Assembly: GCF_012027495.1 (NCBI RefSeq)
Contig: NZ_SNUK01000001.1
Location: 124,001 to 188,000, forward strand
Source: Thermococcus sp. JdF3
GTDB taxonomy: Archaea > Methanobacteriota_B > Thermococci > Thermococcales > Thermococcaceae
Direction of reading: 5' to 3'
DNA: 64,000 bases
Each line of letters opens with the position of its first letter. Within the stretch, counting starts at the first letter, position 1. A program made the position numbers and the translations under genes. Of this stretch, positions 42,255-49,366 are shown piece after piece. The notes beneath the pieces are model-generated. The model did not search any database. It had not been told where the DNA came from and saw only the letters and a list, made by a program, of their open reading frames with translations.

Positions 42255-42939
42255 TAACAGCCCTTGCTTGCGCAAGCGCTGGCGGAAGAACAAGTGCCTT
42301 TTCTAAGGTGCCCATTTTGGAGGGGTTTATCCTCCAGGGTGCCAGTTCTTAGAGTGTTTCACTCTCCAAAGGCGCCCTTCGGGCGCCGAAAAATAAAGGT
42401 GAAACGGATTTAAAGGTCTTGTTTGGCAGTTAAACCCTTATTGGGGTCAAAATTAAAGCTGCACGGCTGATCTTTTGCAAATTTGGGATCTTTGGTCAAG
42501 CTTTGTTAAAGCTTGTTCGCCTGCGCGACGTCGAGGGACGCCAGTCCCGCAGAGTTTGATCAAAGTTCGTGGCTCTTCTTGAAGTGCAATTCTTGGCGTG
42601 GTTTTCTCGCTTCAAAGCCAACGTTTTGGTGGGGAACCCTTTGATTTCATTGAACCCTTGGGGAGAAAAACCAAACCCCGAACACGAGAACGCAAAGAGC
42701 CACCAACTTTGGTGAAACTTTGCACTGCAAAGTTTCAGCGCTGGCGGAAGGGTAAGTGCGTTTTTCAATAACTTCGTTTTTGAGAGGTTTGCGCATTACA
42801 TTTTTCTCCTTCAAGCCTCGCCCTTCAGGGGCGTGGAGGAGGTCAGTTAAGGCGAGAAAAATAACAAGATGGAGGTGCTGGGAAGGCCTTTGTAGTTAGG
42901 GGAAGCAGATAGAAAAGTTTAGGGATAGTGATGCACATA
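42255..42939. repeat. Hairpin-rich region with GCTGGCGGAAG repeats
   Basis: No gene. Inverted repeats include GCTTGCGCAAGC (42266-42277), AGAGTG-ttt-CACTCT, GGCGCCC-ttc-GGGCGCC (42371-42387), CAAGCTTT-gtt-AAAGCTTG and a 12-bp-arm palindrome TGAAACTTTGCA/TGCAAAGTTTCA (42713-42737). The first and last are each followed by GCGCTGGCGGAAG and a related AAGTGC. The motif recurs near 45661-45674 as GTGCTGGCGGAAG. Could be a repeat family or structured RNA. Confidence 0.5.
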
Positions 42940-43667
42940 CTATAAAAGGTCAGTGGAGTTCTCCAAAAAATTTTGCAAAAATGATAGACCATTATTAATG
43001 CTCTCCTCGGTTATGGCACCCCTGCGAACTTTGGTCTTTTTTGATTGGAGGTCTTTGAGGGGATAAATCTCAAAGCCCAGCCTGTCCCTAAAGTCTGTAT
43101 CAAAAGTAAGTATCTTATTTATCCCCATTTTAATCATGAAATACGTAACCCAGGCATCAAAAAGATCAAATTCATTGCTAAATACAATGTTCCTGCCACT
43201 GTTTCCGTATTTTTGAGTTATACTTCTTTTAGTTTCTATTTTAGTTGCCAGGAATTCAAACTCAAAAAGGGAAACACTCAGAGCTATTAAGTAATCCGGA
43301 TCTGTTTTGTTCTCCAGAAAATTAAATATCTCCTGCTTATCTTTTAGGTCATCTTTTCTACTGACGAGGGCCTCTACCTGCAGTGGGTTAAGCAATAGCA
43401 CAAAATTTTTTGGAAACTTTAGACCCAGCTCCAGTATCCTCTCAAAAAAAGTTTTTGCGACTCTCTTTCCGTGTTTCTTTATTAGTTCATTCGTTGTTTC
43501 CCAAAGGGTTGGCCAGCCAATAAAAAGACAACATTATGGGAAGAGATAGGATTATCAAGAAACTCCCTGGATCTTTCATGATACTGGTCTTTTGGGTCAC
43601 AGAGGGAAATTAGAAAGCTCGTGTCCACGTAATACCAATCATTTCTCTGGGCGTGATTAGATCCCAT
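42940..43667 (-). pseudogene. PIN-domain (VapC-like) toxin gene with frameshift
   Basis: ATG 43667 (GGTGAGGGG upstream) starts MGSNHAQRNDWYYVDTSFLI with the first PIN aspartate. The frame fails near 43525 in a T run (GTCTTTTTATT); a one-base shift continues as WETTNELIKKHGKRVAKTFF and on through FSNEFDLFDAWV and LTFDTDF, which supply the remaining acidic residues. Both halves match one ~240-residue PIN nuclease. The second half alone is open to 43401. Either a true pseudogene, a sequencing error in the homopolymer, or slippage. Confidence 0.7.
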
Positions 43668-43694
43668 TAAATCCCCTCACCTTTAGAAACAATG

Positions 43695-43844
43695 CTAAAA
43701 TAGACTAATCCCGTTGTCTTCAAGGTACTTTCTAAACTGTATGCTGCTTATTTTTTGAACTTCTTTTGCTTCTCTGTATATACTGGTATCCCTGAACATC
43801 CCCTTTGCTATTGCCTTTCGAAGGGTCGTATCTTTTTTGTGCAT
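43695..43844 (-). CDS. Small antitoxin-like protein upstream of PIN gene
   Basis: 49 residues, MHKKDTTLRKAIAKGMFRDT..., basic at the start and charged throughout, with a size and position suited to a VapB-like antitoxin. ATG 43844 follows GGTGGGGGG; a TATA-like CTTAAATATTC lies upstream. Not matched to a specific VapB fold. The PIN gene starts 27 bp downstream. Confidence 0.6.
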   Translation of the reverse strand: MHKKDTTLRKAIAKGMFRDTSIYREAKEVQKISSIQFRKYLEDNGISLF

Positions 43845-43953
43845 TCCCCCCACCACAGTTAGTTGGGGTTGAGAATATTTAAGCATTTCTTTCCTGTGCA
43901 CATGGACAAAAATCGAAACAGCATGTCCGAGCTCCTAAAAACATAACTTGCTG

Positions 43954-43997
43954 ACTTAACGGAAATACTTTCCGTTAGGTTTCTGTGCTTAACGAAA
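43954..43997. promoter_or_regulatory. CTTAACG half-sites between antitoxin and AlbA_2 genes
   Basis: ACTTAACGGAAA and TTTCCGTTAGGT form an inverted pair (43954-43980), followed by CTTAACGAAA (43988-43997). These match the operator units at 45322-45400 upstream of the AlbA_2 gene, so the same regulator may control the PIN module. Confidence 0.45.
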
Positions 43998-44029
43998 CCT
44001 CATTAAGGATACTGACGAAAAAGTAGACA

Positions 44030-45316
44030 TTATGCCCTCACGTACCGGGTATTCCTTCCTGAGCCGGTTCTTTTAACCAGGCCCAGCTTCCTGAGCCTGT
44101 CCAATCGCTCCAACACGGCAGGCTTTGAGAGACCCAGTGCATCTCCGAGTTCTGTACTACTTCTTGGCCTGCTCAGCAGTTCAAGGATTATTTTGTCCTT
44201 TTCGTCTAGCAGGGTCTCGGTTCTTTTCTTAAAAACAACTTCAAAGGCGTTTGCCTCGCTTTTGAATTCAACATCCACGAGACCATGCTTCTCGCACTCA
44301 CTTTTAATCATCTTTATCCCATATCCGTATTTCTCAATATAGCCTGAATCGTAAAGAAGTTGGCTCAAAACCGGGTTTCTTGGTACGTGTTCTGGGTCGT
44401 CCAAGTCAACACCCGGCATGAGGCCGCCCGGATTCTTTATCAACAGTTTGTCAGGATAAATGAAAATCCTTACATCACTGGAAACGGCATAGTTCCTGTG
44501 GGCGAAGGCATTGATTATGGCCTCTCTGACGGCCCTGGGTGGGTACTCTGGAACCCGAATCCTTTTGGCTCCGAGTGTGACCTCGAACCACTTAAAGCTT
44601 CTCTCCAGCTCTTCAAAGAGGTCATCAATAACCTTCCAGACTGGTCCACGGAATTCTTTCACCGCCACTGGTTCATCTCCTTCAATATAGATTATTCTCC
44701 CTCTGGCATAGGGCATATCGTCCACGTCCGTAAAAAAGAGTACCCCTGCATTGGTTAGCTTTTTGTCTTTAACTGCCTTGATACTCCTCAAATAGCGCTC
44801 CCAATCTTCCCTAGGTATTTTCCTCCCCCTTGCCTTTTCCATGGCATTGAAGAACCACCATATGTATTCATCTTTTGCCTCATCCAGGGACTTTACTGGC
44901 ACTTCGTCCCAGGTCAGTGCCCCAAGCTCCGCGGAGAGCATAACGATTTCCTGAATCGAGAGGGGCCTTATTGAATTGCCTATTCTTATGTATGCCACAC
45001 CTCCGACCGTGCAGAGGTTTCTTGACTTGGGGACTTTTATAATCAGAAACTCCTTGTCCTCAAGCTTAATTATACTGGTTTCGACATTGACGGGCGGGAT
45101 TATTGAGAGCAGTGCTTGTGAAATCTTCTCCCTGGCTTCTCTTGCGTCACATCCCACCGGTGTCCCGTCCTTTCGAATACCGATAATTATGTACCCTCCG
45201 TCGGCATTTGCTAGGGCACAAATTTCTTTGTGAATATCCTTGGTTGGTTTTTCCTTAAACTCGATTCTCTCACTTTCTCCCTCTGCGATTATCCTAAGGA
45301 ATTCTTCCAGCTTCAT
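44030..45316 (-). CDS. AlbA_2 (Schlafen-type) ATP-binding transcriptional regulator
   Basis: 428 residues. AlbA_2 domain: ESERIEFKEKPTKDIHKEIC and ALANADGGYIIIGIRKDG. Middle RecG-like/HATPase part: PPRAVREAIINAFAHRNY. C-terminal winged helix: SSTELGDALGLSKPAVLERL. ATG 45316 has no ribosome site, and TTTTTAAGATTAA lies ~27 bp upstream, so it is probably leaderless. Two pairs of inverted 10-bp repeats sit over and behind this promoter, suggesting self-control. Family roles include regulation and phage defence. A fragment of the family lies at 33195-33530. Confidence 0.85.
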   Translation of the reverse strand: MKLEEFLRIIAEGESERIEFKEKPTKDIHKEICALANADGGYIIIGIRKDGTPVGCDAREAREKISQALLSIIPPVNVETSIIKLEDKEFLIIKVPKSRNLCTVGGVAYIRIGNSIRPLSIQEIVMLSAELGALTWDEVPVKSLDEAKDEYIWWFFNAMEKARGRKIPREDWERYLRSIKAVKDKKLTNAGVLFFTDVDDMPYARGRIIYIEGDEPVAVKEFRGPVWKVIDDLFEELERSFKWFEVTLGAKRIRVPEYPPRAVREAIINAFAHRNYAVSSDVRIFIYPDKLLIKNPGGLMPGVDLDDPEHVPRNPVLSQLLYDSGYIEKYGYGIKMIKSECEKHGLVDVEFKSEANAFEVVFKKRTETLLDEKDKIILELLSRPRSSTELGDALGLSKPAVLERLDRLRKLGLVKRTGSGRNTRYVRA

Positions 45317-45321
45317 GATTA

Positions 45322-45400
45322 TCGTTAAGTTTAGTTAATCTTAAAAACTTAACGAAAGAGGGATTTTCGTTAAGTTAGCCAGGTTTACGAAACTTAACGA
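45322..45400. promoter_or_regulatory. Operator array: two inverted pairs of TCGTTAAGTT/AACTTAACGA
   Basis: Exact 10-bp units at 45322-45331, 45346-45355, 45367-45376 and 45391-45400, alternating in orientation. Each pair has the same geometry (arms 24 bp apart, 14-bp spacer). The first pair covers the predicted start and TATA box of the AlbA_2 gene. Confidence 0.7.
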
Positions 45401-46001
45401 ATGCGCATCTCTGGAGGCTGTTCTTTTGGTGGTTTCTTTTGTTGTGTTTGTGTATTTTTGCAGCCGTAAATTTTTTGAGGTCTTTGAGTATGATTTTGTT
45501 TTGGGGCCCTTTCCGTTGGGCCTGAAGGCTGATGACCTCCCGTTTGAGGCGGCCGGTGGCCCCAATGTGAACGGGAGTGAGAAGCCAACCGCACCAGTTG
45601 CAACAAATGCAACTGGCAGCGGAAACGGTTATCTCCCATCAACCTTGCCCGGTAACATTTTCAGTGCTGGCGGAAGGTTTGCGCGTGGTTCTGGGGACAC
45701 TGTCCTTCAGAGATTATAAGACAGAAACCAGGTTAATCATCCATAACGGAAAGCTTGAAAACAGAAATGGCGTGTGGTTTGTCCCCCGTGAACTGTTCCT
45801 CCTGATGCTTTGAGCTTTTTTAGTTCTATTTATCCTGTCCGTATGGGAGGAGCCGGTGCTGTTGAGGTTTGGTTAACCCTCGCAACTTTTAATGTACTAT
45901 TTTGGACATCCCCCATAATGGGGTGTGTCCAGACATGTAGTTTGATGTCCAGCCAAAGACGTCAATTGACGAACTGTTCGGGAGAAGAGCGGAGTATTTG
46001 A
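45401..46001. other. Intergenic region with ATPase tail fragment and repeat motif
   Basis: No intact gene. Holds CAGTTGCA-acaaa-TGCAACTG (about 45595-45615), a GTGCTGGCGGAAG motif (about 45661-45674), and from 45740 the left copy of a direct repeat that includes the last 26 codons of the AAA+ ATPase gene. A 97-codon frame (45426-45719) with a hydrophobic start is not supported by a ribosome site. Confidence 0.5.
45740..45923. repeat. Left copy of ~185-bp direct repeat flanking the AAA+ ATPase
   Basis: Matches 47383-47569 with few changes. Contains the ATPase C-terminal codons (NGKLENRNGVWFVPRELFLL) and ~110 bp of 3' flank, ending in the CCCCCATAATGGGG hairpin. Remnant of an earlier gene copy or of an integration event. 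Confidence 0.85.
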
Positions 46002-46060
46002 TCTAGTCCGCTCAAGTCGACTAGACCATAAGGTTTTTATTCTGTTTGAACAGACTAGAC
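46002..46060. promoter_or_regulatory. Operator repeats and promoter of AAA+ ATPase
   Basis: GACTAGAC at 46019-46026 and 46053-46060, with an inverted TCTAGTC at 46002-46008. The TATA-like TTTTTAT (46034-46040) lies between the two direct copies, ~25 bp from the GTG at 46062, so the mRNA may be leaderless and repressed by a protein binding these sites. Confidence 0.5.
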
Positions 46061-46061
46061 T

Positions 46062-47456
46062 GTGGTGAGCACATTGGACGAGAAATTCCTGGAAACCTTT
46101 GTGAGACGCACCGTTGATACCGCCGATAGAACCCTCAAAAAGTACGCTTTTGCTCCTAACGGGAAAAAACGTCCGGAAAGAAAACTCCTCTCAAAACTGT
46201 CTCAAGAGGTTGAGTCTTTTCTTCAGAGTAAAGAAAATCGAGTTATTGTCCTCTACGGTCTCCGCGGTGTCGGGAAGACAACGATGCTGGCTCAGATCTA
46301 CTTTGACCTTTTATCTAGAGTCCCCCGCGAGCGGCTGGTTTACCTCTCCCTGGACAGACTCTATCCCCTCGGCATCGGTCTAAACGACTTCATAATGGCC
46401 TATGAGCGCCTGATCGGCGAGAGGGTGGAAGAGTTCAGTGCGCCTACCTTTCTGTTCATCGACGAGGCCCATTACGATAGGAACTTTGGGACCACTGTGA
46501 AGGCACTTCACGACTCCGCGAACAACCTAATGATCATCGTTACAGGTTCCTCTTCCCTTCCATTGAAGCTCGACCCTGACCTAACACGCCGCGCCAAGAA
46601 GCTCAGAGTGCCACCGCTCACTTTCACTGAGTACCTTCTCCTAAAGAAGGGAGTTCCCATTCCGGAGAAGTTAAGTGATGCCCTGAAAGATGCTTTTCTC
46701 AGCTGTAATTTTACCGGGATCGAAAGCATACTGGGCGACGTTCTCCTGAAGTTCAGCGAGAAGGACGTTGAAGACTACCTCGTTCATGGTTCGCTTCCGG
46801 TCTACCTGAACTCCGAAAACCCCCTGGAGGACGCCTATGAGATTCTCAGGAAAATCATCGAAGTTGACCTCAGGCACGAGGGGCTGGGCGAAACAACCCG
46901 CGAAAAGGCCCTCGGCCTGCTCCTCCTGATGGCCTCCGGGGAGAGCCTGACCTATGACACAATTACCTCAACGCTTGGAATGTCCCGGGATGCCGTGGCC
47001 AAACTCCTGGAGAAGCTTGAAGACCTTGAAGTGATATTCCCCGTCAGGGCCTATGGCTCCATAGGTAAGGTCGCAAGGAAAACTCCCAAATACAAGTTCC
47101 TCGCCTCAATACTCAGGAGCGCGGTTCTCTATGAATTTGGCCTCTTTGAGAGGAACAGTAAGACGCTGGGTATGCTCCTTGAGGACGTGGCGGCGTTCTA
47201 CCTCCATATCCTGGCAAGGGAAAAGCGGCTCCGCCTTCACTACGATGCCCAGAAGGGAGGGGCCGACTTCATCTTGAGTGGGAGGAAAATGGGCATTGTC
47301 GTTGAAGTTGGATGGGGGAAGAAAGGAACTAGGCAGGTTCTAAGAACAATGAAAAAGACCAACATGGACTGTGGTGTGGTCGTCCATAACGGAAAGCTTG
47401 AAAACAGAAATGGCGTGTGGTTTGTCCCCCGCGAACTGTTCCTCCTGATGCTTTGA
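46062..47456 (+). CDS. AAA+ ATPase with DUF4143-like C-terminus
   Basis: 464 residues. P-loop LYGLRGVGKTT (about 63-73), Walker B TFLFIDEAHYD, sensor VTGSSSL, a winged helix (LTYDTITSTLGMSRDAVAKL) and a C-terminal nuclease-like region (LHYDAQKGGADFILSGRKMGIVVEVGWGKKG; quoted in part) with the D...E-x-G-x-K pattern of PD-(D/E)xK folds. GTG start at 46062 (or 46065). Flanked by ~185-bp direct repeats. Common in archaeal accessory regions; function unknown. Confidence 0.85.
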   Translation: MVSTLDEKFLETFVRRTVDTADRTLKKYAFAPNGKKRPERKLLSKLSQEVESFLQSKENRVIVLYGLRGVGKTTMLAQIYFDLLSRVPRERLVYLSLDRLYPLGIGLNDFIMAYERLIGERVEEFSAPTFLFIDEAHYDRNFGTTVKALHDSANNLMIIVTGSSSLPLKLDPDLTRRAKKLRVPPLTFTEYLLLKKGVPIPEKLSDALKDAFLSCNFTGIESILGDVLLKFSEKDVEDYLVHGSLPVYLNSENPLEDAYEILRKIIEVDLRHEGLGETTREKALGLLLLMASGESLTYDTITSTLGMSRDAVAKLLEKLEDLEVIFPVRAYGSIGKVARKTPKYKFLASILRSAVLYEFGLFERNSKTLGMLLEDVAAFYLHILAREKRLRLHYDAQKGGADFILSGRKMGIVVEVGWGKKGTRQVLRTMKKTNMDCGVVVHNGKLENRNGVWFVPRELFLLML

Positions 47457-47569
47457 GCTTTTTCGCAGTTCCCTTTATCCTGTTCGTATGAGAGGAGCCG
47501 GTGCTGTTGAGGTTTGGTTAACCCCTGCAACTCTTAATGTACTATTTTGGACGTCCCCCATAATGGGGG
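47383..47569. repeat. Right copy of ~185-bp direct repeat
   Basis: Covers the last 26 codons of the AAA+ ATPase and ~113 bp beyond. Ends in GTCCCCCA-taa-TGGGGGAC, a strong hairpin that may terminate transcription. Confidence 0.85.
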
Positions 47570-47787: not shown

Positions 47788-48579
47788 ATGCAGAAAAATT
47801 ACTACCTTACAAAAACTGAACAGGACATAATGAGGGCGATACGAGGGGCCGATATAGTGAGTGCTGACGAGATTAGAGAACTCTTCCCAGGTCTCAGCCC
47901 GGAAATGGTTAGGAAGGTTCTTTCTAGCCTCTCAAGAAAGGGCTACCTCACGAGGCTGAAGAAGGGCCTCTATCTCGTTAACAAACAGCCAGGAAACCCC
48001 TCAATAAAAAACCCTTGCAGGATAGCCCTAGCCCTGTTCCCTGGATACATAGCCTTCTCTTCCGCCCTGAGGCTTTATGGTTTACTGGAATATGAACCGT
48101 TCACGATATTCGTGGCCACACCGGGAAAATCCGGTGAGAGAACCATTGGAGAGTACACTATCAAGGCCGTTGCCCTGGGAGAAAAGGCCACAGGAATGAC
48201 GCTTAAGGATGGAATCTATACATCCACCGTCGCGAAGACGTTCTTCGACTGCTTCTACAAGCCTGCCCGCTGCGGGTGTTACCCTGAGATAACCAAGGCC
48301 CTCTACGAGGCCGAAAACCTCGACTGGGACGAGTTCTTGAGCTACTTCGAACGCTTCGCCAGCGACTCCCTCTGCCAGAGGACTGGCTACGTCCTGGAGC
48401 TCCTCAAAAACGAGTTGGGGGTCGACCTCCCGGAGAGAGTTCTTAACTATCTAAGGGGCAGGGTCAAAAGCTGGACGAAGCTCGTTCCAACTCTTCCCTC
48501 CCGCGGGAGGAGCATCAAGGAGTGGAAGGTGATAGATAACCTCAGAAAGGAGAAGATACTGGGGTGGGCGTATGGATGA
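47788..48579 (+). CDS. AbiEi-type antitoxin (type IV toxin-antitoxin)
   Basis: 263 residues. Winged helix at the N-terminus (IVSADEIRELFPGLSPEMVRKVLSSL; quoted in part) followed by the AbiEi C-terminal domain with GYIAFSSALRLYGLLEYEP (the S-x-x-S-A-L-x-x-x-G-L motif). ATG 47788 has no ribosome site: predicted leaderless. Overlaps the toxin gene by 8 bp. Full length. Confidence 0.88.
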   Translation: MQKNYYLTKTEQDIMRAIRGADIVSADEIRELFPGLSPEMVRKVLSSLSRKGYLTRLKKGLYLVNKQPGNPSIKNPCRIALALFPGYIAFSSALRLYGLLEYEPFTIFVATPGKSGERTIGEYTIKAVALGEKATGMTLKDGIYTSTVAKTFFDCFYKPARCGCYPEITKALYEAENLDWDEFLSYFERFASDSLCQRTGYVLELLKNELGVDLPERVLNYLRGRVKSWTKLVPTLPSRGRSIKEWKVIDNLRKEKILGWAYG

Positions 48580-49366
48580 GGAGATGCTCAGGTATCTGGC
48601 AGCGAAGACCGGGCTGGGCCTGAACTACATTGCCAAGGAGGAGAGGATTTCACTTCTGCTCACTCGGCTGTGGGAAATCTTCGGCGAGAAGGCGATACTC
48701 AAGGGAGGTACTGCCCTCAACAGGGTGTACCTCACAAAGATTGGAGCGGCAAGGTTTTCTGAGGACATAGACATTGACTATTTCAACGGCGACGTTGGCA
48801 CGGCGGCCGATGAGATAAAGGAGGGCATGGGACTCATCGAAGGGTTTGAGGTTAAGGGGCCGAGAGTCTTACACAGAACATTTAGGTTCGATTGCTACTA
48901 CGTGAACCCCCTTGGCAATAGAGACAGGGTCAAGGTTGAGTTCTACCTCAGCAGGCCGCCCTACGTTGAGGCCAGAGTTGAGCTGGTCAAATCCCCTTTT
49001 GTGAGTGAGTACCCGACCATGTTCAGGGTGTACTCCTTCGAAGACCTGATCGCCAAGAAACTCGCCGCCCTCTACAACCGCACCGAGGGCAAGGACATCT
49101 ACGACTCCTTCCATGCACTCAACATGGAGTTTGAGAGGAAAAGGCTGGAGAATGCTTTGAAGCTCACCCTTGGATTCTACCACATCGATGAGGAGGACTT
49201 CCTGAATGGCCTGATTGAAAAGCTCGATTACGCAAAGAACAATGCCAGATACATCGGCAACTCCACCAACCACTTCATCCCCAGGAGCCTGCGCCCCAAC
49301 TGGGAAGAGATGATAGAAAGCCTGAAGCTCAGAATTGAAGAACTTGGCCGGGTGATCCCTCTGTAG
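48572..49366 (+). CDS. AbiEii-type nucleotidyltransferase toxin
   Basis: 264 residues. ILKGGTALNRVYL and FSEDIDIDYF give the K-G-G-T-A-L...S-E-D-I-D nucleotidyltransferase site of the DUF1814/AbiEii family; YSFEDLIAKKLAALYNR and DIYDSFHAL are further conserved motifs. Acts by transferring nucleotides to its target and is silenced by AbiEi. Coupled to the antitoxin gene. Appears intact. Confidence 0.92.
   Translation: MDEEMLRYLAAKTGLGLNYIAKEERISLLLTRLWEIFGEKAILKGGTALNRVYLTKIGAARFSEDIDIDYFNGDVGTAADEIKEGMGLIEGFEVKGPRVLHRTFRFDCYYVNPLGNRDRVKVEFYLSRPPYVEARVELVKSPFVSEYPTMFRVYSFEDLIAKKLAALYNRTEGKDIYDSFHALNMEFERKRLENALKLTLGFYHIDEEDFLNGLIEKLDYAKNNARYIGNSTNHFIPRSLRPNWEEMIESLKLRIEELGRVIPL

Follow-up and report, generated by a model that had tools for sequence, protein, structure and literature searches.

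The window, by which we mean the whole 64-kb stretch of DNA analysed here, carries on its reverse strand a gene of 428 codons (44030..45316, the AlbA_2 gene) whose product combines a Schlafen AlbA_2 domain (residues 14-119), a GHKL-type HATPase_c_4 domain (280-362) and a C-terminal winged HTH (wHTH, 370-425). The first two domains scored 76.8 bits (SLFN_AlbA_2, cut-off 25.3) and 69.1 bits (HATPase_c_4, cut-off 26) against the curated Pfam cut-offs, and the wHTH is covered by HTH_5, HTH_24 and HTH_AsnC-type matches at 370-415. The Schlafen-type acidic motif E-x4-E-F-K is present, with E14 and E19-F20-K21 invariant across 18 relatives, and we take E14 and E19 to be the counterparts of E209 and E214 of SLFN11; in the sequence alignment, the candidate column for the third Schlafen acidic residue holds Asp or Asn in most relatives and a lysine (K49) in the window protein and in that of genome G004. 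An AlphaFold model of the protein (mean pLDDT 84.7, pTM 0.61) gave 3LMM as its best Foldseek match (1.4e-24), followed by Schlafen N-domains, and phmmer matched the protein to 3LMM at 5.6e-9. No transposase (Y1/HUH or other) or recombinase domain was detected in it by the Pfam search. A scan of wider genome contigs returned just one weak match, from Lokiarchaeota, the matches in plasmids and phages were all below 60% identity with no Thermococcaceae record prominent among them, and those in viral contigs did not exceed 38%. On the same strand, beyond the 3' end of the gene, an antitoxin-like ORF of 49 amino acids and a PIN-type ORF occupy 42870..43946; the reading frame of the latter (42937-43667) is broken by a frameshift in the window, neither ORF matched a Pfam family at E 0.001, and "PIN" is the label of the original prediction.

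An exact search of the window for TCGTTAAGTT returned exactly four copies, at 45322, 45346 (reverse strand), 45367 and 45391 (reverse strand), and none elsewhere, which bears out the earlier claim of four exact arms with a 24-bp spacing in each pair. The arms form two inverted 34-bp operators over the AlbA_2 promoter, the promoter-proximal operator B (45322..45355, reverse strand) and the distal operator A (45367..45400, reverse strand), with arms 24 bp apart from start to start within each pair and an offset of 45 bp between pairs. The pairs had been described as identical, which holds for the arms but not for the whole pairs, because the 14-bp cores of the two operators differ. Each operator also has an inner third half-site (CGTAAA in operator A) that had been overlooked, and operator B includes the T-run of a presumed TATA box, the TATA-like TTTTTAAG (45340..45347, reverse strand), located 31 bp upstream of the ATG, a distance consistent with a near-leaderless start of the AlbA_2 gene. 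The region contains two elements of the form CGTWAA-N20-TTWACG; when the surrounding 1 kb was shuffled 2000 times with dinucleotides preserved, just one shuffle contained even one such element, which rules out a chance origin.

The conservation of the array was analysed in 94 genomes at the level of the Thermococcaceae, the family of the window. A close AlbA_2 homologue, 57-76% identical, is present in 22 of them, and the motif, for which the original prediction had proposed a search near homologues, forms an array immediately before the start codon in all 22. Its geometry is fixed, with six half-sites CGTWAA before the ATG in every close homologue and the inner half-sites 10 bp from the outer ones wherever the pattern is exact; the two operators are offset by approximately 45 bp in the window, G001, G004 and G008, and by 36 bp in the majority of the remaining genomes. 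A T-run is found 30-31 bp before the ATG and fits the TATA box of a nearly leaderless transcript, with the putative operator covering BRE and TATA. In all 22 homologues, the array is a conserved candidate operator overlapping the predicted promoter of its own gene. With the array sequence model, in which a strong copy has an E below 1e-6, strong arrays were detected in 41 of the 94 genomes, that is, in all 22 with the gene and in 19 without it, and this family-wide distribution rules out a species-specific repeat. The window's own genome has two arrays and the others have at most three strong ones.

A degenerate second array (43947..44011) lies immediately past the stop codon of AlbA_2. The CTTAACG sites reported near the PIN module are indeed present, at 43955 and 43988, with an inverted CCGTTAG between them at 43971, and together they make up this array. 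It aligns to the upstream array with a score of 27.1, against 15.5 at the next-ranking site in the window, and none of 2000 shuffles reached 27.1; the best alignment is inverted, to the reverse strand, and since the arrays are nearly palindromic we leave its orientation unassigned. Whereas the window copy is degenerate, a direct-orientation copy of the array is located 3' of the gene in 14 of the 22 genomes. This copy starts a few bases past the stop codon in 12 genomes and likewise in G001, although there the gene occupies another chromosomal site, and in G084 it is found 5.4 kb away with other genes in between; no clear downstream copy was seen in the seven gene-bearing genomes G004, G005, G007, G010, G011, G083 and G093. 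The direct downstream copies score 34-70, compared with at most 16 in shuffles, and the two copies flanking the gene are about 72-81 bp long. Within one genome they are 72-99% identical, usually closer to each other than to the copies of other lineages. An assembly artefact is ruled out by their presence in the complete genomes G014, G030, G032 and G034 (one or two contigs each). Among about 258 other ORFs of at least 200 amino acids from the same loci, taken as a control, comparable flanking repeats were found only at the window's own ATPase gene, two further high scorers being AlbA_2 genes that had escaped the filter.

The two copies differ in what they preserve. In counts that ignore phylogeny, the T-run is retained in 21 of 22 upstream but only 4 of 14 downstream copies (p 4e-5), and the upstream copy is therefore taken as the promoter. 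Mismatches over the 24 core bases, counted in the same way, average 0.32 in upstream copies, 0.29 in downstream copies and 1.60 in solo arrays (upstream below solo, p 0.004), the solo arrays having been found by a model that favours intact ones. The half-sites thus counted appear best preserved, on both sides, where the AlbA_2 gene is present.

The location of the gene in its relatives gives a further view of these repeats. Twelve AlbA_2 genes lie between convergent genes for rpS8e and a NOG1-like GTPase (names assigned from sequence), and this junction is found in three allelic states: empty, with a solo array, or with an array, the gene and a second array. The solo state occurs in the window's own genome (G000, C4:189594-189661) and in G019, G025, G037, G044, G048, G054, G056, G059, G067, G071, G053, G064 and G066; its presence in the complete genomes G019, G025 and G071 argues against a collapsed assembly. 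When both flanks are aligned, the gene allele of G016 differs from the solo alleles of G000 and G044 by exactly the gene and one array, and in relatives the unit measures about 1.36 kb. Genomes with the gene and genomes with a solo array do not separate on the NOG1 tree: eight changes of state occur, at least five of them forced by well-supported branches, and G016, which has the gene, is sister to G000, which has the solo array. The AlbA_2 genes at this junction fall into three separate lineages. In whole-sequence identities, the only measure used for this comparison, AlbA_2 and NOG1 are 94.2% and 83.5% identical between G016 and G042, and 95.6% and 86.2% between G030 and G032, whereas the G050-G055 pair shows the opposite ratio (84.7% and 93.1%). 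Since distant hosts have AlbA_2 genes that are closer than their NOG1 genes, the gene would have arrived horizontally at one site, and the data indicate its movement between species into the rpS8e/NOG1 junction. AlbA_2 fragments beside arrays, covering residues 1-49 in G075 and 385-426 in G082 (L223, L231), represent decay.

The surroundings of the gene in the window also contain repeats. An AAA_14/DUF4143 ATPase gene (46062-47456) is flanked by a direct repeat of about 190 bp (45737-45923 and 47380-47568), the left copy of which is the detached tail of the ATPase gene with its 3' flank; a related segment also occurs beside the PIN module of G042. Palindromic CTAGTC/GACTAG motifs directly before the ATPase start codon (46001-46061) are apparently the ATPase's own operator, and an AbiEi/AbiEii-type pair (47788-49366) lies beside the ATPase in an island that adjoins an aEF-1beta-like gene. 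Several arrays in other genomes adjoin ATPase ORFs (G001, G032, G068, G053 and G004), and at the rpS8e/NOG1 junction of G053 an array is accompanied by an ATPase gene in the place that AlbA_2 takes in others (L225 3060-4448). The array is nevertheless not a marker of AAA ATPases: at the junction, an ATPase is absent from two of the three lineages of the gene, and no direct repeats were found when the flanks of four array-adjacent ATPases were tested. G044 and G070, which have no close AlbA_2 gene, each have one operator, its arms identical in sequence to those of the window, about 60-70 bp past the stop codon of the ATPase (L036, L037 1501-1532).

A distant AlbA_2 subfamily, 30-33% identical and present in G008, G070, G071, G073, G083, G084 and G023, is likewise flanked by direct repeats, which suggests that AlbA_2 genes of Thermococcaceae are generally flanked by repeats. 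The repeats of this second subfamily contain different iterons (e.g. TGAGTCAA) together with the 5' end and first codons of a flippase-like gene (L032, L033, L026, L027, L243, L255), and its units are stacked in G023 and G073.

Taken together, the comparison establishes, at the level of sequence, the geometry of the putative operators, their direct duplication around the gene, the three allelic states and the apparent horizontal movement. In light of these data, we consider it rather probable that the AlbA_2 gene is an autoregulated Schlafen-domain single-gene cassette whose ends are its operator arrays and in which recombination leaves solo scars. The protein would bind the CGTWAA half-sites through its wHTH and repress its own gene by occupying BRE and TATA. 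The gene would be deleted when the direct arrays recombine, in a homologous or protein-assisted reaction that leaves one array on its own, and the same reaction run backwards at such a solo array could insert the gene. The predicted self-control is supported indirectly, because an array covers the promoter of every close homologue, the protein ends in a wHTH and arrays beside the gene have decayed less than solo ones. The 72-bp repeats alone may be sufficient for host recombination, and we favour the host over the AlbA_2 protein as the recombining agent. For the sites next to the PIN module, the better reading is that they form the putative 3' boundary array of the cassette.

A possible but doubtful alternative is that the protein is an ordinary autorepressor whose downstream array serves as a second operator, for example as a DNA-loop partner, while presence and absence of the gene result from ordinary homologous exchange by way of the flanking genes, the direct repeats making accidental deletions frequent. 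The downstream half-sites, which are as intact as the upstream ones though the T-run is lost, and the lack of an encoded recombinase would both be expected, but between distant hosts AlbA_2 is far more alike than the adjacent 3' end of NOG1, so exchange must stop short in that flank, and the arrangement recurs at unrelated sites in G001 and G084. We find it unlikely that AlbA_2/GHKL/wHTH proteins themselves pair the arrays at both ends of the gene and drive excision and insertion without a classical recombinase, although the second subfamily, with its direct repeats of different iterons, fits a general rule. It appears improbable that the gene merely inserted into sites of the host that occur independently of AlbA_2, such as a terminator, a boundary element or the operator of another regulator: of the 41 genomes in which strong arrays were detected, 19 have only solo arrays, but arrays accompany the gene in all 22 genomes that bear it, even at unrelated sites, the solo arrays are more decayed, the upstream copy is positioned as a promoter, and many relatives lack an array at the junction.

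The original prediction had joined both genes in one defence circuit, with the AlbA_2 protein controlling itself and the PIN/antitoxin cassette; of this, the predicted self-control has indirect support, whereas control of the PIN module is not supported. Relatives of the 49-aa antitoxin-like ORF occur within the genus only in G038 and G042, whose PIN modules have an intact frame and neither an AlbA_2 gene nor an array nearby, the AlbA_2 gene that G042 does possess being unlinked, and their homology to the window starts at 43939-43946, just outside the degenerate array. Half-sites do lie between the two genes, and toxin-antitoxin-like (AbiE) and ATPase genes are close by, but the intact relatives, the frameshift in the window and the homology boundary lead us to reject a shared circuit as very improbable, and the PIN module is, on this comparison, a cassette apparently separate from the AlbA_2 unit.

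The putative DNA target of the protein, CGTWAA with six copies per array, can be read directly from the comparative data, which makes binding and autoregulation testable. If the arrays are also the ends of the cassette, hyperthermophilic archaea would harbour a class of very small mobile units that use a single sequence as promoter switch and recombination boundary alike and whose solo scars record past occupation.

In domain order (SLFN_AlbA_2, HATPase_c_4, wHTH) and in fold (3LMM), the window protein is the same as COG2865-type proteins, which occur widely among bacteria and archaea as prokaryotic relatives of Schlafen antiviral nucleases. In the literature searched we found no role for these proteins, no description of an operator, autoregulation or mobility for their family, and none of a Schlafen-type single-gene unit bounded by its own operator arrays with solo scars. 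The term 'Schlafen' does not occur in the archaeal dark-matter paper (PMC4158269). As in Pyrococcus LrpA, an autoregulated archaeal wHTH repressor to which the AlbA_2 wHTH is related by sequence, the operator lies over the promoter, but here Schlafen AlbA_2 and GHKL domains precede the wHTH in one fused protein and the operator is duplicated at the 3' end of the gene. The REP/RAYT system, or "REPtron", consists of REP-associated transposases with palindromic repeats present in more than 100 copies per genome (PMC2817692). The AlbA_2 unit shares with it a single gene between palindromic repeats and gene-less repeats elsewhere, but its protein has no Y1/HUH transposase domain, its repeats take the form of direct arrays, about 1-3 per genome instead of more than 100, and the repeat doubles as the promoter of the gene. 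Solo LTRs offer another likeness, as a solo repeat is found where relatives have repeat-gene-repeat, as recombination between direct repeats predicts, although the AlbA_2 cassette has no reverse transcriptase or integrase and its repeat is only about 72-81 bp long. Integron gene cassettes are similar in layout, being single-gene units gained and lost at a fixed site marked by a recombination-prone array, but the AlbA_2 array is also located at the promoter. Unlike an insertion sequence or DDE transposon, whose transposase goes together with terminal inverted repeats and a short target duplication, the unit has no transposase domain and its ends are direct copies of about 72-81 bp. Thus, the operator of a wHTH autoregulator is of a known kind, and the layout of the cassette resembles REP/RAYT and solo LTRs but departs from both in the features that define them.
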